NCBI RefSeq assembly: GCF_017873415.1
Contig: NZ_JAGGKD010000004.1
Location: forward strand, 248,001 to 312,000
Reading direction: 5' to 3'
Source: Methanolobus bombayensis
GTDB taxonomy: Archaea; Halobacteriota; Methanosarcinia; Methanosarcinales; Methanosarcinaceae
DNA: 64,000 nt
Made by a program: the position numbers and the translations under genes. The notes under the pieces are model-generated. The model did not search any database. It was not told where the DNA came from and saw only the letters and a list, made by a program, of their open reading frames with translations. Shown piece by piece: positions 1,711 through 26,483 of this stretch; position 1 is the first letter of the stretch, and every line of letters starts with the position of its first letter.

Positions 1711-1808
1711 GCAAGAATACTATTCAATACTCAGTTACATGTTACAATTCATCAGAGATGAGAGAATATCGAAATCCTAATATAAATTCAACAACATTAA
1801 GTTTATAA
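1707..1808 (+). CDS. Tiny 33-codon ORF coupled to the preceding gene by a GTGA overlap; possibly the 5' stub of a lost gene
   Basis: A GTG start overlaps the TGA stop of the preceding gene, the same GTGA coupling used 3 kb downstream between the DUF499 and DUF3780 genes. The frame encodes a polar 33-residue peptide beginning MSKNTIQYSV and stops at TAA. I see no domain. It could be a real microprotein, or the start of a longer cassette gene whose remainder has been deleted. Chance occurrence is also possible. Confidence 0.25.
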   Translation: MSKNTIQYSVTCYNSSEMREYRNPNINSTTLSL

Positions 1809-1853
1809 AAATATTTTAAGATTTGATGATTTTAGCCATAATGGAGGGTATAA

Positions 1854-4800
1854 GTGCAATCTATTGAAAACTTATGTAAAGCGCGTGATTCGATTTTTGA
1901 CAGGAATCGCAGGGATATTGTCCTTGATATTTCAGATGTAGTTGAGGGTAAGATTGATCCTTATGAGTTCTTTGAAGAGAACTATCTCACAGAAGGAATG
2001 AAATCACTTTTTAAACAGGTTTTCAGAAGATTTGCAAACGAATCCGATTCTTCTGTTTTCAAATTGACTCAGGCAATGGGTGGAGGTAAGACACACTGTA
2101 TGATCGGTCTTGCTCTTCTTGCAAAGTATCCTGAGATCAGAAAACACGTTATGGGTGAAGAGTTTGGGAAGAATGTCCTTGGTGAGGTAAAAGTCGTTGT
2201 TTTCAATGGACGTGAAAGTGATGCACCATATGGTATATGGGGATCAATTGCCGAGCAAATAGGTAAGAGTGATTTTTTCAAAGACTATTATTCTCCATTG
2301 AAAGCACCTGGTAAAAGTGCATGGGTTAACCTACTGAAAGGGCAGAAACTATTGATTCTCTTTGATGAACTGCCTCCATACTTTGAAAATGCTAAATCCA
2401 TTACAGTGGGAAATGGTGACCTTTCTATAGTAACAAAAACCGCTCTTTCTAATTTGATGGTCGCAATTGGAACAGATGAATTGTCACAGGTTTCTGTTGT
2501 TCTTTCTGATCTGAAAGCTACCTATGAAGGTGGAAGTGAGCAAGTAAATCAGGCACTTCATGATTTTGAAAATGAGGTCGGAAGAAGTTCTGTGAATATT
2601 GAACCTGTAGGACTTAATACTGATGAAGTATACCAGATTCTTAAGAAGCGCATTTTTTCAGAGCTTCCTGATGATGAAACCATCCTTTCGATTGCACAGG
2701 CTTACGGAGAATCCATCAAAGAAGCTGGACAAATGGACTTAATCCATGTATCTCCAGAAAAGATGGTACAACAGGTGAGGGATTCATACCCATTCCATCC
2801 TGCTATCAAAGATCTGTATGCACGTTTCAGAGAGAACCCAGGATTCCAGCAGACACGTGGATTGATTCGATTCATGCGTGTTCTTGTATCTCATCTTTAT
2901 GAAACAGATGGTGCAAAGAATGCTATGTTAATTCATCCTCATATGATTGATTTAAACAATCCAGAGATGAGTGCTGAGATTAATCTTATCAATTCAACCC
3001 TTGGAAACGCTATAAGTCACGATATAGCATCAGATGGTGACTCAGTTGCAGAGATGGAGGATTCCAAACGTGGAGGTTCTGATGCCCAGGATGTTTGTAA
3101 ATTAATCCTTATGGCATCTCTTGCAAATGTTGAGAATTCAGTACTTGGACTTACAACAGCTGAGATTATAACAGATATTGCAGCACCTGGCAAGGATATT
3201 ACTATACTTCCAGACACAATAAATACTCTTGAAAGCCAACTTTGCTGGTATCTGCATCGGGCAAATAATGGTAAAGTGTATTTCAAGAACACAGAGAATC
3301 TTGTAGCTCGTCTAAGATCACTTGCAGATTCTTATGCAAAAGAAGCAGCTTTAAAGGATGTCAAAGAATTCCTTCAAACAATATTTGCTCCTGAAAGGAA
3401 GGATTGTTATCAGGAACTTCAGATCCTGCCTGCGGTGGATGATATTAGTGTAAGCCAGGATAAAGTAAAATTAATTCTATACGAACCACATGGTGGTTCA
3501 TTACATCCTGACCTTATAGGATTCTATGACTCACTTGATTATAAGAATAGAATATGTTTCCTTTCTGGTCAAAGGGATACAATGAATAATCTGATATCCA
3601 TTGGTAAGGAATTTAAGGCTATCAAATTCATTCTTGCAGAAATGGATAGCAATGGTGTAAGGTCTGATGATACACAAAGGATTGTTGCCCAGGACCTAAA
3701 AGACAACATTATTCATCGTCTATTAAGTTCTGCCAGGGAGACATTTACTCGTTTGCATTATCCACACAGCGATGACCTCCGTGTCACTGATCTCACCATG
3801 AACTTTGAAGGAAATAAATGTCGTGGTGAAGAACTTATACGAACTACACTGACCGACAAACAAAAATTTACACTGGAAGTGGACGGGGATACCTTCAGAA
3901 AGAAATGCGAGCAGCGTCTTTTTACCCAGCAGACCATGCAGTGGTCAGAGATAAAGAAACGTGCTGCTATACTTACTAAATGGCAATGGCATCATCCTAG
4001 TGCTCTTGACAACCTTAAAGAAGAGATGCTGAGAAAAGAACAGTGGAGAATGGATGGTGGATATGTCGATAAAGGTCCTTTCCCTGCACCTTCCACAACA
4101 GTTCAATTAATGGAATGGAACAGGGATGAAGATACAGGCGAAGCCACATTAAAGGTGGTACCTGTTAATGGAGATACTGTCTATTATGATGTTGGAGCAG
4201 AAGCAACTACAGCTTCAGCCAAGGTTGACGATTTCCAGAATTTTGTGACAAAAGATATGCAGGTCTCTTTCCTTTGTGTTGATTCGAAGGGTGTGCATGA
4301 ATCAGGGCCAACCATTAAATGGAGTAATTCAGTCACCATGAAGAAAAGAGTATTTGGTGATGGGGATAAAAAGACTGTTGAACTGAAAGCAGCTCCAGAT
4401 GGGGCTACTATTAAGTATACAACAGATGGTTCAAATCCTAAAAATGCTGGTGGATTATACTCGAGTCCTTTTGAGATAGACAGATCTGTAAGAGTTGTGC
4501 TTGCCATTGCAGAAAAAGAGGGTATAAACTCTGAACCACTCCAGATAGACATCGACTGGAAGGCGGAAAAACAGGGCCTGGATCTTAACAAGCCTACTAC
4601 ATGGAAACACGATCACAGTATAAAATCTACGAAGGATACCTTTGATTTCACCGATCGCCTGAAAAAATACAGGGGACTTGTTCCCGAAGCAAGGATATCT
4701 GTTGTAGGTAAGAGCTGGATAGAACTCAATGTGGATTCAGGAATTGAGCTTTCTGGTGAGCAAATTGAAAAGCTCATTGAATCTCTTAGAGAAGTGTATT

Positions 4801-4916
4801 CAGACGGCCAGGTTAGTGTCAATGCCCGAAGCATTAAATTTACAAAAGGTCAGGACATGAAGGACTTTGCAGATGCGGAGAAAGTTGATATCAATATGGA
4901 TGAGGTTAGTCAGTGA
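1854..4916 (+). CDS. DUF499 family ATPase of an antiphage-type methyltransferase/helicase cassette
   Basis: This is a 1020-residue AAA-like ATPase. The Walker A segment AMGGGKTH is at residues ~74-81 and the Walker B-like LLILFDEL at ~166-173, matching DUF499 proteins found beside DUF1156 methyltransferases in bacterial and archaeal defence loci. Near residues 841-880 a segment with YTTDGSNP resembles the small C-terminal CHB_HEX/chitobiase-type beta domain. The start is GTG, set by GGAGGG at 1843-1848; the protein then begins QSIENLCKA. The gene overlaps the DUF3780 gene by GTGA, implying coupled translation. I infer that it uses ATP to drive or gate the cassette's action on foreign DNA. The biochemical role is not known from sequence. 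Confidence 0.88.
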   Translation: MQSIENLCKARDSIFDRNRRDIVLDISDVVEGKIDPYEFFEENYLTEGMKSLFKQVFRRFANESDSSVFKLTQAMGGGKTHCMIGLALLAKYPEIRKHVMGEEFGKNVLGEVKVVVFNGRESDAPYGIWGSIAEQIGKSDFFKDYYSPLKAPGKSAWVNLLKGQKLLILFDELPPYFENAKSITVGNGDLSIVTKTALSNLMVAIGTDELSQVSVVLSDLKATYEGGSEQVNQALHDFENEVGRSSVNIEPVGLNTDEVYQILKKRIFSELPDDETILSIAQAYGESIKEAGQMDLIHVSPEKMVQQVRDSYPFHPAIKDLYARFRENPGFQQTRGLIRFMRVLVSHLYETDGAKNAMLIHPHMIDLNNPEMSAEINLINSTLGNAISHDIASDGDSVAEMEDSKRGGSDAQDVCKLILMASLANVENSVLGLTTAEIITDIAAPGKDITILPDTINTLESQLCWYLHRANNGKVYFKNTENLVARLRSLADSYAKEAALKDVKEFLQTIFAPERKDCYQELQILPAVDDISVSQDKVKLILYEPHGGSLHPDLIGFYDSLDYKNRICFLSGQRDTMNNLISIGKEFKAIKFILAEMDSNGVRSDDTQRIVAQDLKDNIIHRLLSSARETFTRLHYPHSDDLRVTDLTMNFEGNKCRGEELIRTTLTDKQKFTLEVDGDTFRKKCEQRLFTQQTMQWSEIKKRAAILTKWQWHHPSALDNLKEEMLRKEQWRMDGGYVDKGPFPAPSTTVQLMEWNRDEDTGEATLKVVPVNGDTVYYDVGAEATTASAKVDDFQNFVTKDMQVSFLCVDSKGVHESGPTIKWSNSVTMKKRVFGDGDKKTVELKAAPDGATIKYTTDGSNPKNAGGLYSSPFEIDRSVRVVLAIAEKEGINSEPLQIDIDWKAEKQGLDLNKPTTWKHDHSIKSTKDTFDFTDRLKKYRGLVPEARISVVGKSWIELNVDSGIELSGEQIEKLIESLREVYSDGQVSVNARSIKFTKGQDMKDFADAEKVDINMDEVSQ

Positions 4917-5548
4917 GTCGTGAAAGTTCTGTTGTAGAGGGTTTTGGATTCAAACCTGCAGAGTCAGAGCATTATTTCCTTGTGTCCATTTCCTCTCCCA
5001 CTGGAGATGTTCAAATATCTGAGCATATGTCCTGGGATAATGAGATGTGGAAGGGCAAGATACGTGCAGTAAAAGATGAAAGTGATGAACGCCTACGTGT
5101 TTTCCTCCCAAGGGTCAAATGGGATGGAATTGCAGATGCAGTATCCTCTGAGTTCAACAGCCGCCTGAAGGAAATGGGTTACAAGAAAGGAAGCTGGAAG
5201 AAAAGAGGATTAACACCCGTTTCTCGTCTGTTCGGAAAAGAGCTTGTTCTCCTTGGCTGGGCAATAGAAGATGCTGATCCTGGACGTATTCATGCAGCTG
5301 TTGCCAACTGGCTTGGTCTTTTACCAGAAGAACGCTGGTGGCTCTATACTATGACCAATGCAGCTACAGGCCAGGCACTGCGAGGAAGAAACACAGGCTG
5401 GAGGGCAGCTGTCAGGTTTGCATTGTGCGATAATCCCATCAATTCATCTAAAGCTGAACAGCGTGTTGGTCTTATTGCAAGTCTGGATGACGAAGGAAAA
5501 AACGCGGATCTGGAAAAGAAAAAACAGGGTAGTTTACTTGATTTTTAA
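4913..5548 (+). CDS. DUF3780 family protein of the defence cassette
   Basis: This 211-residue soluble protein starts at a GTG that overlaps the DUF499 stop codon. Its position between DUF499 and DUF1156, its length, and the motif FGKELVLLGWAIEDAD followed by a tryptophan-rich stretch (EERWWLYTMTNAATG) and GWRAAVRFAL agree with DUF3780. No catalytic motif is visible. Since it is translationally coupled to the ATPase, a stoichiometric adaptor or specificity subunit is a reasonable inference. It is followed after 27 bp by the methyltransferase gene. Confidence 0.8.
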   Translation: MSRESSVVEGFGFKPAESEHYFLVSISSPTGDVQISEHMSWDNEMWKGKIRAVKDESDERLRVFLPRVKWDGIADAVSSEFNSRLKEMGYKKGSWKKRGLTPVSRLFGKELVLLGWAIEDADPGRIHAAVANWLGLLPEERWWLYTMTNAATGQALRGRNTGWRAAVRFALCDNPINSSKAEQRVGLIASLDDEGKNADLEKKKQGSLLDF

Positions 5549-5575
5549 TCTAACATTTTAAGTTTTGGAGATAAC

Positions 5576-8488
5576 ATGTCATCTAACAATATTCCTTTTA
5601 ACAAGTCATTCATAGAATCGCAATTTCCTGTGTCAAAAGTTTCAAAGGAGAGTTATAAGGAGCGGAAAGCTAACTATAGTCAAACACTTACAGGACTTGG
5701 AAAGTGGTGGGGAAGAAAACCATTGATTCTTGTAAGGGCAGCGATTCTTGGTTTACTCCTCCCAGCAACTGATAATCCTACTAAAGACCGTGAAATATTC
5801 CTTAAAATCCTAACAATGGATGACGAAGGAATGTGGCAAAGGAAGAAAACAAATATTACAGGTAAGGTGTTGAAAGGCTACCTTAGTCCTAGAGAAAAAA
5901 ACACTTATTTTGATGGTGATCGACTTTGCCGTGGCCTTTCATCTGAAGAAAAGGAAGAGCTTCAAAAGATGGTTTTTTTGCGAATGGGTTATGATGAACG
6001 CCTCACGTATTCTTATCGGCCTGAGGAAATTGATGGTCCATCAATGGAAACATGGAATGAAATTAATGATTATCTTGGAACCAATGCATCATCAATTCCT
6101 GAACTTGTAGAAGAGCTTGGCAAACGACAATTTGGAAAAAGACCATCAGTGGGGGACTGCTTCTGTGGAGGAGGTAGTGTTCCTTTCGAAGCAGCTCGCA
6201 TTGGTTGTGATGTTTTTGGATCTGACTTAAACCCTGTTGCTGCACTTCTTACATGGGCTTCAATGAATATTGTTGGAGGGGAAGGCGAACTTATTGTAGA
6301 AGTCAACAATGTTCTGCAGGAAGTCTATGATGCTGTTGACAAACAAATCATTGAGTGGGGTATTGAACAAAATGAAAAAGGTTGGCGTGCAGATGCCTAT
6401 TTGTATTGTTCAGAAGTGATTTGTCCAGAGTGTGGATGGAAAATACCTCTTCTCACTAAGATGGTGATAGGTGAAGGATCAAAAACAATTGCAAAATTGG
6501 AGGCAAATGAAGCTAACAAATGTTACAATATTCTTATTCATCAGAATGTTTCCACAGGAGAATTAGAATCTGCAAAATCTGCAAAAACTATTGATGATAG
6601 CGGAGTTATCTGTCCTAATCTCAACTGTCCTGCCCATTTCTCACCTACGCCCATAGAAGTCATTAGACAAGAAAACACTGGTGGACTTAGATTATGGAAC
6701 AAAGAAGATGTTTTACCTGCTATTGAAGACGTTTTCCAAGAACGTTTGTATGCTATCAGATGGTTAGAAACTTTTACAGATGAAAATGGTCAGCTTCAAT
6801 CTAAGAAAACGTATCTTGGAGCGGATAATTACGATTTACAAATGGAACAAAAAGTGTTTGTTCTTCTTAACGACAGATTTTCCGAATGGCAAGAGAAAGG
6901 ATATCTTCCAAGTATGAAAATTGAAGCAGGGTACAATACCGATCAACCTAAGAGAGAAAGAGGATGGACACACTGGCATCATCTGTTTACTCCTAGACAA
7001 TTGTTAACTAATGCTTTGTTCCTTAAAGAAACTGAACATAAATGCAAATCAAAATCATCATTTGTTTCATGCTTATTGGGACTTGGAAGAGTATTGGATC
7101 GCAATAGTAAACTATGCGTCTGGGATTCAAGCAAAGCAAATGAAAAGGTGGCAAATACGTTTTTGAATCAGGCTCTAAATACCATTAACAATTTTGGTTG
7201 CAGACCACTTATCCCTCTACAATCATCTTGGTTTAGCAAGATTAAGAATGAAAAAATAATAAATCAATTAAATATTCAAATAAAGACGATTGATGCACGT
7301 TCAATTCTAAATGACAATAGTTTTTGGGTAACTGATCCTCCGTATGCAGATGCTATCAACTATCATGAATTAACCGAGTTTTTCCTTGCATGGTATCAAA
7401 AACCCTTAAACGAAATATTTCCTGAATGGTATACTGACTCTAAAAGAGCACTGGCTATAAAAGGATCTGATGAAGAATTCAGAAAGAGTATGGTTGAAGT
7501 TTACAAGAACCTCGCTGAGCACATGCCTAAAAACGGTGCACAGATAGTTATGTTTACCCATCAAGATGCTAAAGTCTGGGCAGACCTTGCGATGATTGTT
7601 TGGGCAGCTGGACTACAGGTGACAGCAGCTTGGTGCATAGCAACAGAAACCGAGTCAGGAGGGATTAAAAAAGGTAAAGGAAACTATGTACAAGGGACTG
7701 TTCTCCTCGTCCTCCGAAAACAAACTTCAGATGATATTGCATTCCTTGATGAGATATATCCTGAAGTGGAAGAAGAAGTCAAAAAACAGCTTTCTTCAAT
7801 GTTGGATATTGATGACAAGGAAGATCCAAACTTTGCAGATACAGACTACCAGCTTGCAGCCTACGCAGCAGCTTTACGTGTGCTTACACGTTATAAGCAG
7901 ATAGAAGATATTGACATTGAACGTGAACTTTGCCGTGTAAGAGGAAAGGGAGAGGGAAATCCTCTTGAAGGAGTCATTGAAAATGCGGTAAAGATAGCCT
8001 GCGATTATCTTGTACCTGCAGGTATTGATTCATGGGTATGGAAACAGCTCATGCCTGAGGAGAGGTTCTATCTTAAAGGACTTGAGCTGGAAAGCCATGG
8101 AGAATACAGAACTGGAGCTTATCAGGAACTTGCACGTGGTTTTGGTATAAGGGAATATAAGAATCTCCAACAAAGCAAAAAAGCTAACGATACAAGACTC
8201 AAGACAGCTTCTGAATTCAAAGACCGTGATGTTGGAGGGGAAGGTTTCTCGTCTTCACTTGTAAGGAACATACTGTTTGCTATTAGGCAGACAAGACAGG
8301 AAGATGATACGGCAGCAGGTAAAGTATGGTTGCGAGAATATCCAGGGTATTGGGAAAAGAGGAAAGAAATTATTGAACTTCTCAGGTATTTCGCCGCGCT
8401 TGGAATGAACGATTCCATGGAACAATGGGAGGAAGACTCTAAGGCTGCAAAGATGTTGTCGGTTGTTGTGGAGCAGGACCACATATGA
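5576..8488 (+). CDS. DUF1156 DNA methyltransferase (adenine-type, DPPY motif) of the defence cassette
   Basis: This 970-residue protein has the DUF1156 N-terminal signature GKWWGRKPLILVRAAILG (residues ~41-58). A SAM-binding motif I, DCFCGGGSVPFEAARIG, is at ~193-209 and a catalytic DPPYADAINYHELTEFF at ~586. DPPY is typical of amino-methyltransferases acting on DNA adenine. Cysteine pairs at ~281-284 (CPEC) and ~345-350 form a possible zinc-binding insert. The start ATG follows GGAG at 5567-5570. By analogy with related systems it should mark host DNA while the ATPase/helicase parts act on unmodified DNA. That division of labour is inferred, not seen. Confidence 0.88.
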   Translation: MSSNNIPFNKSFIESQFPVSKVSKESYKERKANYSQTLTGLGKWWGRKPLILVRAAILGLLLPATDNPTKDREIFLKILTMDDEGMWQRKKTNITGKVLKGYLSPREKNTYFDGDRLCRGLSSEEKEELQKMVFLRMGYDERLTYSYRPEEIDGPSMETWNEINDYLGTNASSIPELVEELGKRQFGKRPSVGDCFCGGGSVPFEAARIGCDVFGSDLNPVAALLTWASMNIVGGEGELIVEVNNVLQEVYDAVDKQIIEWGIEQNEKGWRADAYLYCSEVICPECGWKIPLLTKMVIGEGSKTIAKLEANEANKCYNILIHQNVSTGELESAKSAKTIDDSGVICPNLNCPAHFSPTPIEVIRQENTGGLRLWNKEDVLPAIEDVFQERLYAIRWLETFTDENGQLQSKKTYLGADNYDLQMEQKVFVLLNDRFSEWQEKGYLPSMKIEAGYNTDQPKRERGWTHWHHLFTPRQLLTNALFLKETEHKCKSKSSFVSCLLGLGRVLDRNSKLCVWDSSKANEKVANTFLNQALNTINNFGCRPLIPLQSSWFSKIKNEKIINQLNIQIKTIDARSILNDNSFWVTDPPYADAINYHELTEFFLAWYQKPLNEIFPEWYTDSKRALAIKGSDEEFRKSMVEVYKNLAEHMPKNGAQIVMFTHQDAKVWADLAMIVWAAGLQVTAAWCIATETESGGIKKGKGNYVQGTVLLVLRKQTSDDIAFLDEIYPEVEEEVKKQLSSMLDIDDKEDPNFADTDYQLAAYAAALRVLTRYKQIEDIDIERELCRVRGKGEGNPLEGVIENAVKIACDYLVPAGIDSWVWKQLMPEERFYLKGLELESHGEYRTGAYQELARGFGIREYKNLQQSKKANDTRLKTASEFKDRDVGGEGFSSSLVRNILFAIRQTRQEDDTAAGKVWLREYPGYWEKRKEIIELLRYFAALGMNDSMEQWEEDSKAAKMLSVVVEQDHI

Positions 8489-8519
8489 GTGAAACAAAAT
8501 AATTTCAAGGACTAATAAA

Positions 8520-11225
8520 ATGATCAACCGCTTCTCATCTCGCCGTGAACCTATGGATGCAACATTTCTCAACAAACGCCTTGAAGGTGCCAGGAAGTAT
8601 GACAGAATAGCAGGCTATTTCAGTTCATCCATTCTTGAGGTTGCTGGAGAAGCACTGGATTCTGTTGAAGGAACTGTACGTGTTGTATGTAACTCACAGC
8701 TTGAACCAGAGGATGTTAAAACTGCACGTGCGGCTCTTGCAGCCATAAGGAAAGAGTGGTGTGCAGAGGAACCTGAAAAAATAGGTGACGAGGCACGTGG
8801 CAGATTCTTGAAGTTGTATCAGTATCTCAAATCAGGGAAGCTACAGGTAAGGGTGCTTCCTGACAAGGCATTCGGTCTCATCCATGGGAAAGCTGGGGTC
8901 ATAACAAAAGCTGATGGAACAAAGACCGCATTCATGGGAAGTACCAACGAAACATTGTCCGCATGGAAGCGTAACTATGAGCTTGTATGGGAAGATGATT
9001 CTGATGATGCTATTAACTGGGTGCAGGAAGAGTTTGATGCGCTCTGGAATCATCCAGACTATAAGGTTCTTGCAGAATTTATCATAGAAGACATTGGAAG
9101 GATAGCAAAGCGTGAGGTTATTCCATCCATTGTGGAATGGCAGAAACAACCAGAACCCGCTTCAGCTATTGTGGAAAGTCCTGTATACAGGAAAGAATTC
9201 GGACTTTGGGAACATCAGAAGTACTTCATTGACCTTGCCTTCAAGGCACATCAGACTGAGCATGGAGCTCGCTTTGTCCTTGCAGACATGGTAGGACTTG
9301 GTAAGACCCTGCAATTGGCAATGACCGCACAGTTGATTGCTCTTACAGGAGACAAACCTATATTGATCCTAACACCTGCAACTCTGAGATGGCAGTGGCA
9401 GGATGAAATGAAAGAACACCTGGATCTTCCATCTGCTGTCTGGGACAATGGTAGATGGGTAGATGAAGAAGGCATCGAATATCCGAAATATGGTGATGAA
9501 GGCATACTTAAGTGCCCACGAAGAATAGGCGTGCTCTCTTATGGTCTGATAACTCATTCCTATGGGAACGAAAGGTCAACTATACCTGACCTCCTGTGTT
9601 CAAAAAAATATGATTGCATCATAGTTGATGAATCCCACAGAGCCAGAAGAAAGAATCTAGGTCCAACACACGAAAATGAAAAAGCAGAACCGAATAATCT
9701 TCTTGCTTTCCTTCAGGATATAGCTGGTAACACCAAAAGTATGCTTCTTGCAACAGCAACCCCTGTTCAGCTCTATCCTATCGAAGCATACGATCTATTA
9801 TCAATACTTGGCGGTGGAAAAAATGAATCTGTACTTGGCAATAAGTTCAGCAAATGGAGAACAGAGTCATTTGAATCACTGAACATCATCCAGGGAAATA
9901 TAACAAATAATGATGCGGAAAATGATCTATTCAAATGGATAGCAAACCCATTCCCTCCCGCATCAGAAGGAATAGATTATTCAATCCTAAGGCGTTCTCT
10001 TTCGGTTGAGGATTCAGTGGCAGTAGTTCCACCATCAAGATGGCTGGATTTGAGTCCATCTGATAGATCCAGACTTGAAAGGATGAAAAATGACTTTTTC
10101 CAGAAGCATAATCCTTACATCAGGCACATTGTAAGAAGAACAAGAGATTTCCTTGAAAATGAGAAGAACCCTGAAACTGGGGAGCCTTACCTGCAGAAGA
10201 TAGAGGTCAAACTTTTCGGAGAGGATGACAAAGATGCAATACCTCTCCCAATATATCTCCAAGATGCTTACAAGGCTGCAGAAGAATTCTGTCAATTACT
10301 AGGTGAAAGAGCAAAAGGTACAGGTTTTCTGAAAACCCTTCTTCTCAGGCGTGTAGGTAGTACACTGTATGCTGGAAAAATTACTGCAAGCAAAATGTTG
10401 GGTATCCGTGAGGATTCAGATTTAGATTCTGAAGAGGAAGAAGATGTTCAGAGAAGTGAGCTTTTTGAGAATATGTCTGAAGCAGAAAGAAGCCTATTGC
10501 TGAGTTTTGTTCGAATAATTGATGAGCACATGGATAATGATCCTAAATATGAAAAGGTTGTGGAAATCTTAAAAAGCGATAGATGGATTGATCGTGGTTG
10601 CATAATCTTTTCCCAGTATTATGATTCAATACAGTGGCTTGCTGACAAATTAAAAGAAGAGTTGGTTGACGAGAAAATAGGAATATATGCAGGCAGCAAC
10701 CGTTCTGGTATTGTAGAAGATGGAATTTTCAGGCGTGCTTCCCGTGAAGAGATAAAATCACTTGTACGTAAAGGTTCTATCAAACTTTTATTGGGAACAG
10801 ATGCAGCCAGTGAAGGTCTGAACCTTCAGACACTAGGTACTCTCATCAACCTTGACTTGCCATGGAACCCTACAAGACTCGAACAAAGAAAAGGAAGGAT
10901 ACAACGTATTGGCCAAGTGTATGATGATGTATGGATTTACAATATGCGTTATAAAGGTTCAGTAGAGGACAGAGTGCATGAACTCCTTTCAGACAGACTT
11001 GAAAAGATAAACTCACTCTTTGGCCAGATACCTGATGTATTAGAAGATGTCTGGGTAGATGTTGCATTGAACATGATCGATGATGCAATGAAAACCATTG
11101 ATGCTATTCCACCACGGCATCCTTTTGAAATGAGATATGATGTTATTCAGCCTGTAGATTGGGAATCATGTGCACAAGTGCTTGATAATCATGAGAAGAA
11201 ACAGCATCTCTTGAAGGGATGGTGA
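8520..11225 (+). CDS. SNF2-type helicase with N-terminal phospholipase D-like nuclease domain
   Basis: This is a 901-residue protein. The N-terminal ~180 residues carry one PLD-type HxK motif (HGKAGVI, ~121) with GSTNET ~20 residues later, as in single-HKD nucleases that dimerise. The SF2/SNF2 motor follows: Walker A VGLGKTLQL (~258), DESH box (~370), ATATP (~415), and motifs V/VI TDAASEGLNLQTLGT and EQRKGRIQRIGQ (~760-800). An acidic run (DSDLDSEEEEDV) lies near 635. AAGG at 8507-8510 precedes the ATG. It closes the cassette and is the likely DNA-translocating and cutting effector. Confidence 0.88.
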   Translation: MINRFSSRREPMDATFLNKRLEGARKYDRIAGYFSSSILEVAGEALDSVEGTVRVVCNSQLEPEDVKTARAALAAIRKEWCAEEPEKIGDEARGRFLKLYQYLKSGKLQVRVLPDKAFGLIHGKAGVITKADGTKTAFMGSTNETLSAWKRNYELVWEDDSDDAINWVQEEFDALWNHPDYKVLAEFIIEDIGRIAKREVIPSIVEWQKQPEPASAIVESPVYRKEFGLWEHQKYFIDLAFKAHQTEHGARFVLADMVGLGKTLQLAMTAQLIALTGDKPILILTPATLRWQWQDEMKEHLDLPSAVWDNGRWVDEEGIEYPKYGDEGILKCPRRIGVLSYGLITHSYGNERSTIPDLLCSKKYDCIIVDESHRARRKNLGPTHENEKAEPNNLLAFLQDIAGNTKSMLLATATPVQLYPIEAYDLLSILGGGKNESVLGNKFSKWRTESFESLNIIQGNITNNDAENDLFKWIANPFPPASEGIDYSILRRSLSVEDSVAVVPPSRWLDLSPSDRSRLERMKNDFFQKHNPYIRHIVRRTRDFLENEKNPETGEPYLQKIEVKLFGEDDKDAIPLPIYLQDAYKAAEEFCQLLGERAKGTGFLKTLLLRRVGSTLYAGKITASKMLGIREDSDLDSEEEEDVQRSELFENMSEAERSLLLSFVRIIDEHMDNDPKYEKVVEILKSDRWIDRGCIIFSQYYDSIQWLADKLKEELVDEKIGIYAGSNRSGIVEDGIFRRASREEIKSLVRKGSIKLLLGTDAASEGLNLQTLGTLINLDLPWNPTRLEQRKGRIQRIGQVYDDVWIYNMRYKGSVEDRVHELLSDRLEKINSLFGQIPDVLEDVWVDVALNMIDDAMKTIDAIPPRHPFEMRYDVIQPVDWESCAQVLDNHEKKQHLLKGW

Positions 11226-11267: not shown

Positions 11268-12221
11268 ATGAGAAAATGTAAGTGTGGAACGCAGTTAGAT
11301 TCTAGAGAATACTGTCATCACTGTCAGCAGTATATGGTCTCCTATAAGAATAAGACTGATTTTAAAAAAAGATGTAGTATTTGCAATAAGCTTTTTAGAG
11401 ATTTGTCTAACTATATGGATCATCTCAAAAATCATCCCCAATGTGATTATTGTCAGGAAAGATTCTTCTCAGAAGATGCACTAAAAAAACATCTTGAATC
11501 TAATCATACATGTCCTATATGTAATGAATACTATTGCTCTGTTTCAAAACACCTTGTCATGGCGCATCCTTATTGTGAGTTTTGTGATAAGAGATTTTTA
11601 AATCGGGATATTTTTAAAGAACATATGAAGGATCATCCAAAATGTGAGTATTGTGGAAATAATTTCCAGGACAAGATACATCTTGATTCTCATATACTGG
11701 AAAAACATCATTGTCACGTGTGTAACCAATATATTTGTAATGTTGAAGAGCACATCCGTGAGCAACATCCATTCTGTAACTTATGCGATCAGTATTTTTT
11801 TGATGCAAAATCTTATGAGCAACACAATCAGCAGAAACATACACATCAATGTACCTATTGTGACAAAATTTTCAAGCTCAAGGCAAGCTTAGAAAATCAT
11901 ATATCAAATAGTCATAAGTGTAGTTATTGTAACAAATATTTTAGTGAACTTAAACAGCACTTTATTGATGAACACTTTTATTGTGAACGCTGCAAGAAGC
12001 CATTTTTCAATGCTAATGATTATAAAAAAGACCAGAGCTTTCATAATATGGTTACATACAAATTTGTAGCTCCTTCGAAAGGACGTAAACAATCAAAGAA
12101 CACTTCTCGAAAAATATTTGGTGGAAAAATCGAATGCCAGTTTTGTCTCAAAACTTTTGCAAGTGAGAACGAGAAAGATGAACATATCAAAGCATTTCAT
12201 TCAAAACGAAAAAAAAGGTAG
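11268..12221 (+). CDS. Multi-C2H2 zinc-finger protein, copy 1 (11 finger units)
   Basis: Of 317 residues almost all are Cys/His fingers. An N-terminal ribbon (CKCG...CHHC) is followed by 11 Cx2C...Hx3-4H units. Finger spacing cycles as 12, 12 and 9 residues between the last Cys and first His, three times in a row (fingers 1-3, 4-6, 7-9). Finger 10 is degenerate and finger 11 ends in a basic tail. A GTG at 11256 gives a 4-residue longer form. I chose ATG 11268 because it aligns with the start of its paralogue and has GTGAG at 11256-11260 ahead of it. Arrays this long are rare in archaea. It is likely a nucleic-acid binder. The gene ends TAG-TAA. Confidence 0.85.
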   Translation: MRKCKCGTQLDSREYCHHCQQYMVSYKNKTDFKKRCSICNKLFRDLSNYMDHLKNHPQCDYCQERFFSEDALKKHLESNHTCPICNEYYCSVSKHLVMAHPYCEFCDKRFLNRDIFKEHMKDHPKCEYCGNNFQDKIHLDSHILEKHHCHVCNQYICNVEEHIREQHPFCNLCDQYFFDAKSYEQHNQQKHTHQCTYCDKIFKLKASLENHISNSHKCSYCNKYFSELKQHFIDEHFYCERCKKPFFNANDYKKDQSFHNMVTYKFVAPSKGRKQSKNTSRKIFGGKIECQFCLKTFASENEKDEHIKAFHSKRKKR

Positions 12222-12331
12222 TAAATATTTTCCTGTAATAATAATTTAAAACAGAAGTGTTAATGAGTCAGCATATGGATGCAGAAAACAAAAGAGCATG
12301 CCTAAAAATCATACAAAAAAGAGGTAGCAAT

Positions 12332-12550
12332 ATGATTGAATCGGTAGATGTAGATATAAGTGACTTTATTGACGACGGTGACATTATTTCTGAAACAGTA
12401 TATAATATTGACATAAACATTGAAATTGACTGGGATACTGTTGCAGAAAAAGTGCTTGATATGTACACGGGTGGTTTTGATATTGATGAAATTGTGCACA
12501 GGGTAAGAACAAATGAGAATAAATATCTAAAAGCATCTCAGGATTTTTAA
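12332..12550 (+). CDS. Small acidic protein between the two zinc-finger genes
   Basis: This encodes a 72-residue, strongly acidic protein rich in Asp, Ile and Val (MIESVDVDISDFIDDGDI, later ending KASQDF). The start ATG at 12332 has GAGGT at 12321-12325. Upstream in-frame ATG 12263 and GTG 12257 would lengthen it to 95-97 residues but lack a good ribosome site. It stops 1 bp before the second zinc-finger gene, so the two are almost certainly co-translated. The charge is opposite to that of the basic finger proteins. I do not recognise the family. A DNA-mimic or inhibitor-like partner of the finger proteins is only a guess. Confidence 0.65.
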   Translation: MIESVDVDISDFIDDGDIISETVYNIDINIEIDWDTVAEKVLDMYTGGFDIDEIVHRVRTNENKYLKASQDF

Positions 12551-12551
12551 A

Positions 12552-13643
12552 ATGTCTAATTGCAGATGTGGAAACAAATTAGATTCAAAAGGATACTGCC
12601 ATGAGTGTCAGCAATATGACACATCTCACGAAAAAAAAGACTTTTTTGAGAAAAGATGTGTCATTTGCAACAAGCTGTTTACTGATTTATCTTTCTATAT
12701 GGATCATCTTGAAACTCATCCACAATGTGACTTTTGTAAGGAACGTTTCATATCAAAAGAAAAATTGAATGATCATTATGATTCAGACCATAAATGTCCC
12801 TTATGCAATGAATATTATCGGTACCTTTCAGAACACATTTACTATACTCATCCTTATTGTGATGTTTGCAATAAGAATTTTTTAAATAATGATATTTATG
12901 AAGAGCATATGAAGAAACATCCTCAATGTACTTACTGTGACAAAAAATTCAAGGATGATTCTGCTCTTTATATCCACGTTCAAGAAACTCATAAATGTCA
13001 TGTCTGTTTGAAATATTTCACTGATGTTAGTGATCACTTGAATTCAAACCATTCCTTTTGTAGATTGTGTAATCGTTATTTTATTGACGAGAAACGATAT
13101 ACGCAACACATTGAGCTGGAACATACTCATAAATGTATGTACTGTAATACGTTTTTCAATTTCAAAGAGGAATTGGATACACATTTAAAAAATACTCACA
13201 AATGCAAAGCTTGCAAAGATTATTATACTGATCTTCGACAACACTTTATAGATAATCATTTTTACTGTGAAATCTGCAGAAAGCCTTTTTTTACAATTCA
13301 AGATTACAATTTTGATAAAAAAATGCATGAACATGTGGGAAAAATTATGCAACAAATTGAAAAAGAGAATAAAGAAATGCTTGCAAGAGCATTTCCAGAT
13401 GGTTTTCCCAATAAAAAAAAGAAAAACACAAAAAAAATAGAATGTCCTTTCTGCTCTAAAACGTTTCTATACGAAGAAGCAAGAGATAGGCACATAAAAG
13501 AAATGCATTCTCATGAAAAAACAAAATCGTCAAAAACTGTAAAGAAATCTAATAAATATAAATGTCCTTTTTGTGAAAGAAAATTTAAAACAGAGGAGGG
13601 AAAAAGTCAACATATAACAGCAGTTCATCCAAATAAATTGTAA
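12552..13643 (+). CDS. Multi-C2H2 zinc-finger protein, copy 2 (12 finger units)
   Basis: This 363-residue paralogue of the gene at 11.3 kb has the same N-terminal ribbon (CRCG...CHEC) and the same 12-12-9 spacing cycle repeated three times. A degenerate finger, a lysine-rich linker (~residues 270-300, KKKKNTKK) and two further classic fingers follow. The finger order and many non-ligand residues (for example MDHL and HPYC) match copy 1, so the pair arose by whole-gene duplication after the internal triplication. It probably binds DNA or RNA at a long site. It follows the acidic small ORF by 1 bp. Confidence 0.85.
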   Translation: MSNCRCGNKLDSKGYCHECQQYDTSHEKKDFFEKRCVICNKLFTDLSFYMDHLETHPQCDFCKERFISKEKLNDHYDSDHKCPLCNEYYRYLSEHIYYTHPYCDVCNKNFLNNDIYEEHMKKHPQCTYCDKKFKDDSALYIHVQETHKCHVCLKYFTDVSDHLNSNHSFCRLCNRYFIDEKRYTQHIELEHTHKCMYCNTFFNFKEELDTHLKNTHKCKACKDYYTDLRQHFIDNHFYCEICRKPFFTIQDYNFDKKMHEHVGKIMQQIEKENKEMLARAFPDGFPNKKKKNTKKIECPFCSKTFLYEEARDRHIKEMHSHEKTKSSKTVKKSNKYKCPFCERKFKTEEGKSQHITAVHPNKL

Positions 13644-13816
13644 TTAGAAATAAATCAAATAGTCCTAATTAATAAACAACTGTTTTTCAAAACTATTTTT
13701 ATGTTATTCATAAAAATAAAATATATTCGTATTTTCTTCCCCTCTATATAGGTAAAATAATTATGAACAAACAATATAGTAACTTTTATTAAGTTATACT
13801 TGTTTGATAGTTTAAT

Positions 13817-15751
13817 ATGTTAAAAACAATTCCCAACTTAACCAATAAAAAAATAGATATTTTTATCAAATGGTTAAGGGAACAAAAACTAAAAATGGAG
13901 AGAGATAGGTCAAAGCATATCGATGCAAATGTGACAAGTACTCGCTTCAAAATGGCAAAGAACCGCATTTTTTATTATGTTGATTTTCAAGTGTCTGAAA
14001 AAGACAGAGATATTATTGAAAGATACTATAATCCATTTGTAATCAGAGAAAACAAGACATTCAAGGTTCAAAATAAACATGCTTCCGATGCACTAAAAAT
14101 TAACCTGAGAACTGCAAATTCACCCTCTCACCCTTTAGGTGAACTTGGTTCTTGCATATTTAAAGCATCTTTAATAGATTTCAGGCTTGTTTTTGAGAAT
14201 GACCCTCATCTAAAAATAGGAGAAATTGCTACTGTATACGACGTTCCTCCAATAAAGAACATAGAAAGACAGATTGCTCTTTTGGAAGAATTAAAAAACA
14301 ATGATTCAGTATTGAAATCAATCTTATTTGGTACCTATGAACCTTTACCTTATTCTGAAAAGCCAATCAGTTTTGCCAATGACAAATTAAATAATGTTCA
14401 GCAGGAAGCTATTTTTAAAGCCCTGAATACGAATGATTTTCATTTAATATTGGGTCCTCCTGGCAGTGGTAAAACAACAATGATAAGAGAATTATGTGAA
14501 CATCTCATTCAGCAGGATAAAAGGGTTCTTCTCACATCCTGGATGAATGTTGCAGTTGACAATGCACTTGAATCTATTATCAGAAATAAGAAGTTTGGAC
14601 AAAGAGATATTTGTCGGATAGGATCAGGAGATTATAAGATCTCTGAATTAGTTCAGCCATACAGTTTATCAGATGACCTTTCAGAGCTAGCTAATAAAAA
14701 AATAGTAGGTGTTACTCTTGCAAGTGCATATCGAGCAAAGGACATAAACAAGAAAAAATTTGATGTTGCAATAATAGATGAAGCTGGAGCTGCTACAGTT
14801 CCACAAACACTTTTAGCACTGGACATAGCTGACAAATTTATACTTGTAGGTGATCACCTTCAGTTACCGCCAATCGTAAATGAGGCTGATGAAGAATGGA
14901 TGTGTAGCAGTCTGTTTGAAAATTTATGGAAAATGTATCCTGACAAACATACAATGATGAATGTTCAATATCGTATGCATAGATCAATAGCAAACATTGC
15001 ATCAGAGCTTGTTTATGATGATTTAGGTGGCATTATCACACCTGATTTCATGGACTCTAGAAAAACTCCATTGGATCAGGTAGACCTTGGAAGGTTTCAA
15101 CGATATGAACAACAAATTGTCGACAAAAATCTACCAGTTTGCTGGATTGATGTGGATGGTCAGGTAGAATGGAAGCATATGGGCCAGGCTTCTGCAAAGA
15201 ATCTGCTTGAAATAGGTTATGTGAAGAAAGTTGTTGAACTTTTAGTCGATTCTGGGGTCGGTCTCGATGAGATTGGAGTTCTTAGTACATATAGATTACA
15301 ATTATCGAACATAATGATCAACTTTGAAAAAGAAATTGATCATGGATTAGTGGTAGATACTATTCATTCTTTCCAGGGAAACGAAAAAGGTATCATCATA
15401 ATTTCTTTGGTCGAAAAGGATTGTAACAAAAAGATATTTTCAGATATCCGACTTCTAAATGTCGCAATCACCAGAGCAAAATATAAACTTATATTGATTG
15501 GCTCTAAGCAACTAGCAGGATCAAAAAGCACTTCAAAAGGCTTTGCAAAAATAATTCACTTCTCCACGACTATTTCTAAATCAAATGGCAATACTGGCTT
15601 TATATCAGGTAACACACTCAAACCTGCTAAAATAGAAGAACTTGTTGAAGAAAGCAAAAAGCAAGATCTAATGATAGATACTGTTAGTGAAATTGAAAGC
15701 GAGCGGAAGCGTTTAAAGTTGCCTCCTAAAAAACAATATTATAAGCGTTAG
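13817..15751 (+). CDS. Superfamily 1 DNA/RNA helicase of the UPF1/DNA2-like group
   Basis: This 644-residue SF1B-type helicase has all main motifs: Walker A GPPGSGKTT (~213), DEAGA (~321), GDHLQLPP (~346), QYRMH (~385), HSFQGNEKG (~517) and NVAITRAK (~548). A ~190-residue N-terminal region precedes the motor and may be a nucleic-acid-binding beta domain. It is preceded by a 173-bp AT-rich spacer, so it likely has its own promoter. Its TAG stop is in frame with the TPR gene downstream and no stop lies between them. In the defence-island context it is probably a nucleic-acid-processing component. Confidence 0.85.
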   Translation: MLKTIPNLTNKKIDIFIKWLREQKLKMERDRSKHIDANVTSTRFKMAKNRIFYYVDFQVSEKDRDIIERYYNPFVIRENKTFKVQNKHASDALKINLRTANSPSHPLGELGSCIFKASLIDFRLVFENDPHLKIGEIATVYDVPPIKNIERQIALLEELKNNDSVLKSILFGTYEPLPYSEKPISFANDKLNNVQQEAIFKALNTNDFHLILGPPGSGKTTMIRELCEHLIQQDKRVLLTSWMNVAVDNALESIIRNKKFGQRDICRIGSGDYKISELVQPYSLSDDLSELANKKIVGVTLASAYRAKDINKKKFDVAIIDEAGAATVPQTLLALDIADKFILVGDHLQLPPIVNEADEEWMCSSLFENLWKMYPDKHTMMNVQYRMHRSIANIASELVYDDLGGIITPDFMDSRKTPLDQVDLGRFQRYEQQIVDKNLPVCWIDVDGQVEWKHMGQASAKNLLEIGYVKKVVELLVDSGVGLDEIGVLSTYRLQLSNIMINFEKEIDHGLVVDTIHSFQGNEKGIIIISLVEKDCNKKIFSDIRLLNVAITRAKYKLILIGSKQLAGSKSTSKGFAKIIHFSTTISKSNGNTGFISGNTLKPAKIEELVEESKKQDLMIDTVSEIESERKRLKLPPKKQYYKR

Positions 15752-15793
15752 ACTACGCGGTTATTTTTAATTTATTCATGTGGGGATTTAATA

Positions 15794-16924: not shown

Positions 16925-18244
16925 TCAGAACTGGTCGCTGAACACATGTTCCAGTTTCACTTTAAGCCTCTCCTCAACACACTGATAACAATTCGCTGAC
17001 CAGAATGGTACATCAACAGCAGTAATTCTGATACATTCATCCGTACCACCTTGTTTAACAACAAAAGTACAATCCTCTGCCAGTTCTTCTGAAGTATTCG
17101 GATATATCAGTAAAACCTTCTCAGTACCTCTTCTGTAAGCATAGCTTACCATCTGATACATGTCAGCTTGAGAAATGCCTTTCTTTGAATCACTATTCTC
17201 CAGATCCCAGCGAGGTTTATATTTAGTATCAATAATTATTTGCTCGCCAGTTTCCTTATCAGTTAGCAGAATATCGTGCTGGAGATTGAAAGTTTTTGGA
17301 TCATCATGCAGGTAAAGATTTGACTTTTGAGCTTCCACTTTGAACTTGCCACTGAAATGTTTTCGAATAAAACCTGCTATGAACTCTTCAAAGATGAGTT
17401 CCATAGGAAACAACAGACTCCAATTCCTCATATCATAGTTCTCATGAGAATAAACCTGATTTTCCAATATCATACTACAGATATGGACTATCTCTTCATA
17501 ATCGCCATATATGGGAGATATTTGGAGACTCGAGAGCTGTTGGGATGAACATACCTGATCATCAACATCATCCAGCACAAAAATGATATCATTCAGCAAT
17601 CTCTGGGTTTCAGGGATTCTGGCTTTTGAAAGCAATAATCTGGTACAGTATTTAATTGTACGATTAAGTGAGTTATCAAACAGAAACGGTTCATAATCAC
17701 AATCTATCTGATGGTAGTTGCAATATGAAATTCGATTCACATAACGAGTGAAATTTATCCTTCCGCGTGGAGTCTGTAAAGCTTCAGATACTTCTTCATA
17801 AGCAGAGTAAGGCTGATTGCTTATAACCTCATGTATTTGATTTGCAAATAGGTATATGATAAGTTCTGGTAATTCGTATATATCACATTGATCAAGGAAA
17901 GCCTGATTGAATGGGAATTTTACTCTATTGCAGTAGCTGAACCAGTAGAACAAATGACGATGCATGAGCTCTCTGCTGATATCGCCATTATTTTTGAAGA
18001 TCTTAGGGAATATCTCGACCTTGAAGTCCTCAAAATGAATGAAGCCGATGTAGTTTCTTGCTCTGGCCAGTTCTCCATCAAATATCAAAAATGGCTGATA
18101 CTTATTTCTCTTTTTGAGAGAATCATCTTCCTTCTTAGGTGGCCAGACCTCTTTGTATTCTCTCCATAGGGAATACAAGTAAGATTCAAGAGAAACTCGG
18201 TCAGGAACCTTGACCTGCTCACCGTATTCAAATATCTCTTTCAT
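16925..18244 (-). CDS. mcrC: McrC, nuclease subunit of McrBC type IV restriction system
   Basis: This 439-residue protein lies directly downstream of mcrB (4-bp gap). The C-terminal half carries a PD-(D/E)xK nuclease core: HDILLTDKETGEQIIIDTKY, with Asp at ~324 and DTK at ~337-339. The N-terminal half matches the McrC specificity/partner region (YIGFIHFEDFKVEIFPKIF). In McrBC systems, McrB hexamers translocate on DNA containing modified cytosine and McrC cuts it. The family assignment is secure from the nuclease motif plus pairing with McrB. Confidence 0.9.
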   Translation of the reverse strand: MKEIFEYGEQVKVPDRVSLESYLYSLWREYKEVWPPKKEDDSLKKRNKYQPFLIFDGELARARNYIGFIHFEDFKVEIFPKIFKNNGDISRELMHRHLFYWFSYCNRVKFPFNQAFLDQCDIYELPELIIYLFANQIHEVISNQPYSAYEEVSEALQTPRGRINFTRYVNRISYCNYHQIDCDYEPFLFDNSLNRTIKYCTRLLLSKARIPETQRLLNDIIFVLDDVDDQVCSSQQLSSLQISPIYGDYEEIVHICSMILENQVYSHENYDMRNWSLLFPMELIFEEFIAGFIRKHFSGKFKVEAQKSNLYLHDDPKTFNLQHDILLTDKETGEQIIIDTKYKPRWDLENSDSKKGISQADMYQMVSYAYRRGTEKVLLIYPNTSEELAEDCTFVVKQGGTDECIRITAVDVPFWSANCYQCVEERLKVKLEHVFSDQF

Positions 18245-18248
18245 GAGT

Positions 18249-19919
18249 CTAGTGCTGTATTTGCCAGTCGTATTTCTCTATATCATATTTCACTGACCAG
18301 CTACTTCCTTTGAAGATATCCTCTACAATATCGGTTTTGCCTGAGAAGTATTCCATCAGAAGTGGTATCACTTTATTGTGCAGTACATCAGTTATACCTA
18401 TATTGTTCATGAAATATCCATGGCCTATAAGGTAATTAGTCGACTTCTTACGATCATATATTTCTTTATTTATGTGTCTGAGAATACTGCGTTCCTCATC
18501 CATCAGTAAACCATAATCAGGGAAATATCCAATGAACTCGAATCGTCTTCTTAGTGCAATGTCAATTAGTGCAATTGATTTGTCAGCAGTGTTCATGGTT
18601 CCTATAAGATAAAGATTCGGAGGCACTCCAAATACCTTGTCTTCATTTGGAATGTTAACCATAAGCTCATTCTTAGCTCCAATGCGCTTATCCTCTTCTA
18701 AAAGTGTAATCAATTCACCAAAGACCTTTGATATATTAGCTCGATTAATTTCGTCTATTATAAGAACATATCTTTTTAATGAAACCTCCGTCGCAGCTTC
18801 TTTTCCCAATTCCCATAATTCATTAACCAATGGATCAAAATAAGCCCTTCGACCACTATTAAGTTCTCTTATTCCTTCGTAAAGACCTTGGAGCGTATTG
18901 ATACTCAATTTATAAGTGTTATCAACGCGGTTTCTATAAACAATATAGCTATCATCAGGATTTACTTCCGTAATCCAAAATGATGATTTGCCACCTAATG
19001 TTTTGAGTTCAATTTCATCACCATTCTCAAGTGGTTCCATAAACTCGGAAAACACCTCCTCAAAAGGTCTAAGAGCATCTACGATATTCTGAGATTGTAA
19101 ATAGTTCTGCTCTGCTCTTTTACATAACTTGTAGAACACTCCTTCTGTTCTTTTAAATTTGAGATCTGAGCCATCTAGGTCTGGTCGGATACCTATCATG
19201 AAATCTTCATAACCGTAATTCTGGTGGAAGGTAACAAATTCTATTTGTCCTTCTTCTCGTAAAAAATCAAAAACGTCTTTATTTTCATCGTGGCTTGCAT
19301 TATTGCCAGTGATAATCTTGACTGCTTTATCAATGGTCTTGAATGTTTTCCCAGTACCAGGAGGACCATAAAGAATAATGTTGCATGGATGCTTTGGTAG
19401 TTCTGTTTCTTTTTTTACAAGTGGCACTTTATCGGACATGAATTTCACTCCAAAATAAGGTTTGAATAATATCTCATTAGCTTCATTCAGGTCTCTTGGA
19501 GTGATTTCTGTCAGTGTGCTGTTTCCACTTGGATAAATATCTTTTTTGTGTTTCTTCAAAGAATCTGGATAATTTTTGATAGCAGGTTTAATGTATTCTA
19601 CTTCCCTATATATCCATCCAGGTTCACCAGTAATATCTTCTGAAACATATTCCCACGAACCAGGCTTGACCTTAGCAATTGTGTAAACTTCATCCCCACC
19701 AACAGTGATGTATACATAATCGCCATCTTTGAGTGTATTTTTAAATCTCTCAGCCTGTCCTTTTTTGGTACTTTCATGAAGTACTATCCACTTATTTTGT
19801 TTTAATGTCTCTAGTATGTCAGCATATTTTTTGAGCTTAAAAGCACCATGTGACATTTTGTAGAGTCTTTGTTCCTCAAGAGGAATCTGTAATAATGTGT
19901 CTTGTAGTTCAGTTTCCAT
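18249..19919 (-). CDS. mcrB: McrB, GTPase/AAA+ motor of McrBC type IV restriction system
   Basis: This is a 556-residue protein. The AAA+ domain has Walker A GPPGTGKTFKTIDKA (~186), Walker B VLIIDEINRANISKVFGE (~382) and the McrB signature GTMNTADKSIALIDIALRRR (~440). The N-terminal ~120 residues (GDYVYITVGGDEVYTIAKVK...) look like an EVE/PUA-like beta-barrel that could read modified bases, replacing the usual McrB DNA-recognition domain. It ends in TAG just before the mcrC ATG. It recognises methylated or hypermodified DNA, which would complement the methyltransferase cassette upstream. Confidence 0.9.
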   Translation of the reverse strand: METELQDTLLQIPLEEQRLYKMSHGAFKLKKYADILETLKQNKWIVLHESTKKGQAERFKNTLKDGDYVYITVGGDEVYTIAKVKPGSWEYVSEDITGEPGWIYREVEYIKPAIKNYPDSLKKHKKDIYPSGNSTLTEITPRDLNEANEILFKPYFGVKFMSDKVPLVKKETELPKHPCNIILYGPPGTGKTFKTIDKAVKIITGNNASHDENKDVFDFLREEGQIEFVTFHQNYGYEDFMIGIRPDLDGSDLKFKRTEGVFYKLCKRAEQNYLQSQNIVDALRPFEEVFSEFMEPLENGDEIELKTLGGKSSFWITEVNPDDSYIVYRNRVDNTYKLSINTLQGLYEGIRELNSGRRAYFDPLVNELWELGKEAATEVSLKRYVLIIDEINRANISKVFGELITLLEEDKRIGAKNELMVNIPNEDKVFGVPPNLYLIGTMNTADKSIALIDIALRRRFEFIGYFPDYGLLMDEERSILRHINKEIYDRKKSTNYLIGHGYFMNNIGITDVLHNKVIPLLMEYFSGKTDIVEDIFKGSSWSVKYDIEKYDWQIQH

Positions 19920-24954: not shown

Positions 24955-25435
24955 ATAAAACTAGAAGTTACAAGTATATGAATTTATTTGACTATAATCC
25001 ACAAATTGTGTTAACTGAGATTAATTCATTCATCTCTAATTTCGGTTCTGTAGAAATCCTCTTAAGACCCATAGAAAAACCAGTCTCAGGGATAATCGAT
25101 AGAATTCATGACGCAACATGAATTTGATCCTACAGATTCATACGATGATGGCTTATATAAAATAATTCTGTAAAAGCATATACTAAAGTCATGCCTATCA
25201 GGAAAATCCCCGAATATATCCTGCAATAGCCAAATCCACTCATTGATTTATTTTCAACTACAAGAGTGACCACTCTAGCATTCAGATAGTTTTATAATTT
25301 TGCGATTATATGAATTTTTTTAGAAGTTGAACCATTATCAGTAGGGATTATTTTAGTTATTATTTATTTATTTAAAATACCATTTTTCGTAAAAAATCCC
25401 TGTTTATTAATGTGTACTTATTATATAGTATCAAT
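24955..25435. other. Divergent intergenic region without a supported gene
   Basis: This lies between the minus-strand membrane gene and the plus-strand helicase. Frames are broken by stops. A very AT-rich stretch at about 25350-25390 (TTATTTATTTATTTAAAAT) could hold the helicase promoter TATA element. I see nothing else specific. Confidence 0.4.
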
Positions 25436-26398: not shown

Positions 26399-26483
26399 AC
26401 CGATTTGTGTCTCAAACATACAAGCAAAGGAGAGGTATAAAATGACAACAAGAAACAACAAATCAATTGATTTGTGTCTCAAA
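26393..26483 (+). repeat. 65-bp insertion bounded by imperfect 26-bp direct repeats that splits the helicase gene
   Basis: ACAAATAAACCGATTTGTGT (26393-26412, continuing CTCAAA) recurs 65 bp later as ACAAATCAATTGATTTGTGT (26458 on, also continuing CTCAAA). The first copy lies in the frame of the N-terminal half and contains its TAA. The second lies in the frame of the C-terminal half. Collapsing the repeats would join the reading frames cleanly (…FSPDK-SIDLCLKATR…). The added 65 bp shifts the frame but also supplies GGAGAGG at 26429-26435 and an ATG at 26442. Confidence 0.8.

Follow-up and report, generated by a model that had tools for sequence, protein, structure and literature searches.

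Long arrays of C2H2 zinc fingers are regarded as a eukaryotic hallmark, and the locus described here raises the question of what two such arrays, encoded side by side in the archaeon Methanolobus bombayensis, are used for. Archaeal C2H2 genes are scarce (0.07% of genes; PMC3541406), and the collection of papers searched contained none describing long archaeal C2H2 arrays. The window, i.e. the whole stretch of DNA analysed, comprised 64,000 nucleotides (contig NZ_JAGGKD010000004.1, positions 248,001 to 312,000). The following features surround or constitute the zinc-finger (ZnF) module:

1854-4916, + strand: DUF499 gene; Type-2 BREX-related system, outside the ZnF module
4913-5548, + strand: DUF3780 gene; Type-2 BREX-related system, outside the ZnF module
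5576-8488, + strand: DUF1156 methyltransferase gene; Type-2 BREX-related system, outside the ZnF module
8520-11225, + strand: PLD helicase gene; Type-2 BREX-related system (1854..11225), outside the ZnF module
11268..12221, + strand: ZnF A, 317 aa; zinc ribbon, nine fingers (12-12-9, three times), degenerate finger 10, basic linker and finger 11
12257..12550, + strand: small ORF of up to 97 aa with an acidic product (charge about -11), assigned to no family
12552..13643, + strand: ZnF B, 363 aa; paralogue of ZnF A with one extra C-terminal finger
13817..15751, + strand: SF1 helicase, IGHMBP2/UPF1-like, 644 aa
15794..16894, + strand: TPR protein with a zinc ribbon and, at its C terminus, a C4-zinc domain ('PPAP'); an accessory protein paralogous to a core family
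16925-18244, - strand: McrC; McrBC pair (16925..19919), outside the module
18249-19919, - strand: McrB-like AAA protein; McrBC pair, outside the module

The five same-strand genes from ZnF A to the TPR protein form a module that has a complete BREX-related system on one side and McrBC on the other. The Type-2 BREX-related (BR) system, as defined in PMC12839542, lies immediately upstream of the ZnF genes and on the same strand, and the McrBC pair lies downstream, which bears out the defence-island setting of the initial annotation. The fingers had also been tied to the methyltransferase/helicase cassette, and this tie was not confirmed, as the cassette exists at 89-90% identity without ZnF genes. 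In the genomes concerned (G134 and G021), the DNA matches the window across all four BR genes but no further than the helicase stop codon (window positions 11226/11223); therefore, the segment 11268-16894 was inserted separately between the two systems. Nine further genomes of the class contain a relative of the PLD helicase, arrays being present in 0/9, and ZnF genes were absent from the flanks of the six other BR loci examined. The ZnF pair was rejected as a BR component on the grounds of the ZnF-free systems of G134 and G021. In G021, the BR helicase shared with the window has a DUF429-like gene (L153:6526-7251, assigned by eye) immediately behind it. Upstream, the gene order is a RecB/UvrD-like gene, DdmD, the DdmE-like gene of the window and then the BR genes, so that an archaeal DdmD (L019:6178-9615, PDB match 5e-58) and a DdmE-like Argonaute (97-1710, 2e-12) are located directly 5' of the BR system. 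DdmDE represents a separate insertion, because BR homology in other genomes begins only at about window position 1805-1839.

ZnF A starts with ATG at 11268 and its stop codon ends at 12221; an alternative in-frame GTG is present at 11256. Both proteins open with an N-terminal zinc ribbon (C-x-C, C-x2-C), followed by fingers with ligand positions identical in A and B (beginning at residues 36, 59, 82, 103, 126, 149, 170, 195 and 218). The spacing between the second Cys and the first His of these first nine fingers follows 12-12-9, 12-12-9, 12-12-9 in either protein, a 9-residue finger having one helix turn fewer ahead of the first His. Finger 10 (C239/C242) is degenerate, with 16 residues to H259 and, in A, no proper second His. 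Beyond a basic stretch of 50-60 residues, A carries one ordinary finger (residue 290) and B two (298, 338), which brings the totals to 11 and 12 fingers. Both proteins contain fingers of the form C-x2-C-x12-H-x3-5-H and pass the Pfam zf-C2H2 cut-off; the x12 spacing is present in 6/9 array fingers and in the terminal fingers, and zf-C2H2_4 matched A with E=2e-22 and B with E=3e-25 (78 and 87 bits, cut-off 27). A DNA pattern for a 9-residue finger followed by a 12-residue finger had four matches in the window, all inside ZnF A/B (0 expected from shuffles). The ligand positions and Pfam scores agree with the initial description of a ribbon plus 11 or 12 C2H2 fingers, and the 12-12-9 cycle, said to occur three times per protein, was recovered at identical positions in A and B.

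The array had been explained by triplication of a three-finger unit followed by duplication of the whole gene. Since the units are only 30-39% identical to one another and the grouping of the 12-residue fingers into 1/4/7 versus 2/5/8 gave the best separation among the 10 possible splits (a register that is suggestive only), triplication of a three-finger cassette is plausible, though it would be ancient. The duplication was confirmed: with 49% identity, dN 0.34 and dS 1.41 (dN/dS about 0.24), the A/B pair is, as judged from these values, an old tandem duplication that has since been under purifying selection.

One possible function is regulation: by binding specific DNA sequences, the ZnF proteins would repress or silence the island or incoming DNA, as eukaryotic poly-zinc-finger proteins do. 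In Krueppel-type arrays, bases are read in the major groove through contacts at helix positions -1, 2, 3 and 6, which are often diversified, and base-reading eukaryotic C2H2 arrays require a linker of about 5-7 residues (TGEKP type). The ZnF proteins have tandem C2H2 fingers and, by prediction, a matching bba fold in common with proteins of this type (ZFP568, CTCF, PRDM9, TFIIIA), and their single fingers exceed the Pfam zf-C2H2 cut-off. However, the inter-finger linkers of A comprise 2,1,2,2,1,2,3,1 residues, a feature absent from the initial description. Across the seven arrays measured, linker length ranged over 1-3 residues for A/B and over 1-4 for P0002, L037, L038, L041 and L042, with TGEKP-type linkers of 5-7 residues absent throughout; moreover, every third finger of A/B is shortened to the 9-residue form. 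In most fingers, D, N or S occupies position -1 (an N-cap-like choice), other contact positions hold acidic or small residues, and hardly any arginine is present at -1, 2, 3 and 6. The contact positions are not faster evolving (A/B identity 0.50 there versus 0.33 at other surface positions), and base-contacting, diversified residues of the Krueppel kind were not found at -1, 2, 3 and 6 of A/B. Because of the 1-4 residue linkers, the D/N/S residues at -1 and contact positions that are not hypervariable, canonical base reading by these arrays appears unlikely. The same linkers and contact positions argue against the nucleic-acid recognition first proposed, if eukaryotic-style reading was meant.

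The charge distribution bears on the regulator reading in both directions. The arrays of A and B are nearly neutral (+0.6, -2.5), with C-terminal tails of +10.6 and +13.2, whereas the arrays of another genus, composed exclusively of 12-residue fingers, are basic (+11 to +23). Also in favour of this reading, the archaeal virus protein AFV1p06, a single C2H2 finger with a C-terminal extension, binds DNA (PMC3541406). ZnF A/B are predicted to have the archaeal C2H2 fold in common with AFV1p06 and other archaeal C2H2 proteins, but differ from them by a compact array of 9-12 fingers, and neither protein has the single-finger-plus-extension layout of the AFV1p06 family. Taking the linkers, the contact residues, the shortened fingers and the near-neutral array of A/B together, regulation by sequence-specific DNA binding is unlikely.

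An AlphaFold2 model of ZnF B, generated with 10 relatives, reached a mean pLDDT of 82 and a pTM of 0.40; it predicts strand-helix elements in each putative zinc finger (pLDDT mostly 80-94). Foldseek searches with this model matched DNA-bound arrays finger by finger, a point in favour of the regulator reading, but the chain as a whole did not superpose on them (TM about 0.1, at a model pTM of only 0.40). Against a viral library (BFVD), TRAF-type fingers of viral TRAF-like proteins were among the better TM values (0.16-0.22), which is a weak lead; compact tandem fingers are common to both. TRAF-type rods have their own finger spacing and coiled-coil or MATH partner domains, and TRAF Pfam families gave no match in A or B. 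From these observations we infer that the array is a compact rod and not a DNA-wrapping reader, although the pTM of 0.40 leaves the inter-finger geometry tentative.

The ZnF family was then traced through related genomes. The genome of the window contains two further arrays, at L016 and L017. The former (L016:9163-9855) is 86% identical to A (DNA 94% over 675 bp), is truncated after finger 8 and runs into a DUF429 fragment, with a dN/dS of about 0.8; its loss has therefore been tolerated. The region L016:9163-19000 is decayed and comprises this truncated copy with the DUF429 fragment, an MrfA-type zinc-domain fragment, PglZ and a BrxHI-type helicase. The latter array (P0002, L017:11089-12459), which lies downstream of a TPR protein, is 32% identical to B and shows the spacings 12-12-12-9-13-12-9-12-12-12-12, so that the spacing cycle, whose conservation the initial annotation had taken as decisive, is conserved in part but not kept exactly. 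Strong array matches among 60 relatives were confined to the window's own genome. At E below 1e-8, arrays were detected in 6/238 genomes of the class, in line with their presumed rarity in archaea; a broader profile added two more array genomes within the order, and a phylum sample of 393 genomes yielded no further arrays. The array of G114 is of the P0002 type, that of G106 mixes 9- and 12-residue fingers, and those of genus g3 consist of 12-residue fingers throughout (all-12), their repeats being nearly identical and accompanied by an extra C-terminal domain. The ZnF genes at L038, L039, L040 and L041 encode all-12 arrays with the nearly identical repeat CKYCxxxFQSxxxLxxHIKDxH and a conserved C-terminal domain; the near-identity of their repeats would suggest recent homogenisation.

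Species genomes and viral contigs were scanned for the cassette with a fixed-spacing DNA pattern. The exact 9-then-12 spacing of A/B had no genuine match in ~85,000 species genomes, a collection from which the records nearest the window may be excluded; seven matches in these genomes and one in viral contigs were rejected as chance or low-complexity frames. An x3 variant, applied to viral contigs alone, gave no match there. ZnF relatives were absent from plasmid and phage collections, and viral contigs contained no close ones. A viral or plasmid origin was rejected, as phages and plasmids gave no match and viral contigs one distant endonuclease-like protein with a few fingers. The ZnF array family is thus patchy and so far confined to Methanosarcinales-like relatives.

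The neighbours of ZnF genes vary from locus to locus. In G125 and G127, ZnF genes lie directly 3' of an apparently intact BglII-like restriction endonuclease (REase) gene, and one is found nearby in G133, a genome of the same genus; in G132, the ZnF gene adjoins an Mrr REase gene, and the array has a PPAP-C2H2 gene as divergent neighbour. The BglII-like gene occurs without ZnF genes in five genomes and was rejected as a conserved partner, being lineage-specific at best. The ZnF locus of G114 has housekeeping neighbours only, and that of G030 a transposase-like gene. Thus, the non-defence contexts that were to speak against a defence role do occur (G114, G030), while several ZnF genes of another genus adjoin REase genes. 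Recombinase or transposase-like genes are present near L039 and L128. Together with the very patchy occurrence and the within-genome spread seen at L016 (DNA copy, 94% identical), they are consistent with selfish or mobile cargo or with counter-defence factors that hitch-hike in islands and have no role in host defence. The purifying selection between A and B, the lack of plasmid, phage or close viral-contig relatives and the full defence systems on both flanks make this explanation decidedly improbable.

The partner genes recur independently of the arrays. The SF1 helicase matches the C-terminal region of the Mokosh protein MkoA (2e-74), with TIGR00376 below cut-off. Mokosh combines an MkoA-type helicase with a partner or fused PLD nuclease; the helicase of the module resembles the C-terminal part of MkoA, but has 644 aa instead of 1112 or more. 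No Mokosh partner was found beside the SF1 gene, and the PLD helicase nearby is part of the BR system. An SF1 relative (45% identical) is located directly 3' of PglX-PglZ-BrxL in G159. Relatives of the TPR protein were searched with the zinc domain alone, a whole-protein query being swamped by TPRs. Four Cys are invariant in the PPAP domain, which usually occurs with TPRs and is encoded by a single-copy core gene in most relatives (core genes at L102:7493-8686, L103:6702-7412 and L104:6819-7532); in the window's genus, this core gene adjoins topoisomerase VI genes (the topoisomerase having been assigned from sequence by eye). No Pfam or NCBIfam model matched the domain, and a search with its fold gave no significant PDB match. 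Accessory PPAP copies are fused to one or more C2H2 fingers in G132, G128, G002 and G015. In G002, the genes directly 3' of BrxL in a BREX operon encode a TPR protein and a PPAP-C2H2 protein; this island has the McrBC pair (87% and 69%) and a UvrD-like gene (66%) in common with the window. Further PPAP genes are neighbours of Hma systems, at two loci of G117 and in G155, and one follows a short pAgo with REase partner in G015. The BREX PglX gene of G002 is broken into ORFs of 614 and 576 aa (L055:13374-16962), and the methyltransferase may therefore be inactive or made in two pieces.

The genes of the module might constitute a stand-alone, undescribed defence system in the order ZnF A, acidic ORF, ZnF B, SF1 helicase and TPR protein, as they are five co-directional genes between two independent defence systems, with an MkoA-like helicase and with relatives of the SF1 and TPR/PPAP genes at defence operons elsewhere. 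Against this, the five genes occur together nowhere else: the other ZnF genomes lack SF1, so that ZnF and SF1 co-occur only in the window, and the partner-carrying genomes G159, G002 and G015 have no ZnF arrays. A conserved set of ZnF, SF1 and TPR genes was rejected for the same reason. The acidic ORF, which the initial annotation had grouped with the fingers, the helicase and the TPR protein, has no relatives among the loci compared, and the co-occurrence expected of such a grouping fails. A system standing on its own is quite unlikely.

The arrays could also bind RNA or dsRNA and act with RNA-processing enzymes such as the UPF1-like SF1 helicase and RNase III-like proteins. The Pfam family zf-C2H2_jaz, a dsRNA-binding type, matched the two ZnF proteins with 1e-7 and 6e-14, and an IGHMBP2-family helicase adjoins the ZnF pair. 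RNase III-like genes, which are unusual in archaea, were noted in three genomes in the vicinity of ZnF or PPAP-C2H2 genes: L016:7618-8742 near the truncated copy, L038:13073-13546 near an array and L087:8258-8782 near a PPAP gene. However, the jaz matches may reflect generic C2H2 similarity, no RNase III-like gene lies near the pair in the window, and an Rfam search of the region revealed no RNA family. This RNA-binding reading is improbable.

Because SF1/TPR partners recur at BREX 3' ends and several ZnF genes adjoin REase genes, an association of the ZnF genes with defence is plausible from gene context. The reading we prefer, to which we assign a probability of roughly four in ten, is that the ZnF proteins are compact adaptor rods. 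Fingers 1-9, with their tight packing, would form a stiff rod, which would bind partner proteins, or nucleic acid in a non-canonical manner, and would not read bases in the major groove. Contact with nucleic acid would be supplied by the zinc ribbon and by the basic tail with its last one or two ordinary fingers; in this way, the ZnF protein could bring the helicase and TPR proteins to invading nucleic acid, and the module would be an exchangeable add-on to operons for DNA-modification defence. Counting against this reading are the restriction of ZnF plus SF1 to the window, the change of neighbours between loci, the lack of defence genes beside some arrays (G114), the five genomes with the BglII-like gene but no ZnF gene, the truncated L016 copy and the pTM of 0.40. 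The more specific proposal that 11268-16894 is an undescribed exchangeable BREX/BR accessory module of methanogens, in which ZnF rods would connect invading nucleic acid with the SF1 helicase and with a TPR/C4-zinc sensor, is doubtful. If it is true, long C2H2 arrays would have a new use beyond base reading and beyond eukaryotes. A lineage-restricted archaeal family with tight linkers and shortened fingers, whose members apparently do not read bases, would show independent elongation of the C2H2 fold into rods. The partner genes at BREX 3' ends and beside Hma and pAgo operons suggest an accessory slot in archaeal DNA-modification defence that has so far gone unrecognised.

Two further observations were made downstream of the McrBC pair. 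The overlapping ORFs at window positions 25412-28238 (328 and 631 aa) both match a 909-aa UvrD/RecB-like protein of G015 (L088:2631-5360), and the region looks like a frameshifted helicase-nuclease gene. A serine-recombinase-like ORF at 30480-31019 is 50% identical to one near the ZnF array of G125 (L039:12308-12940).
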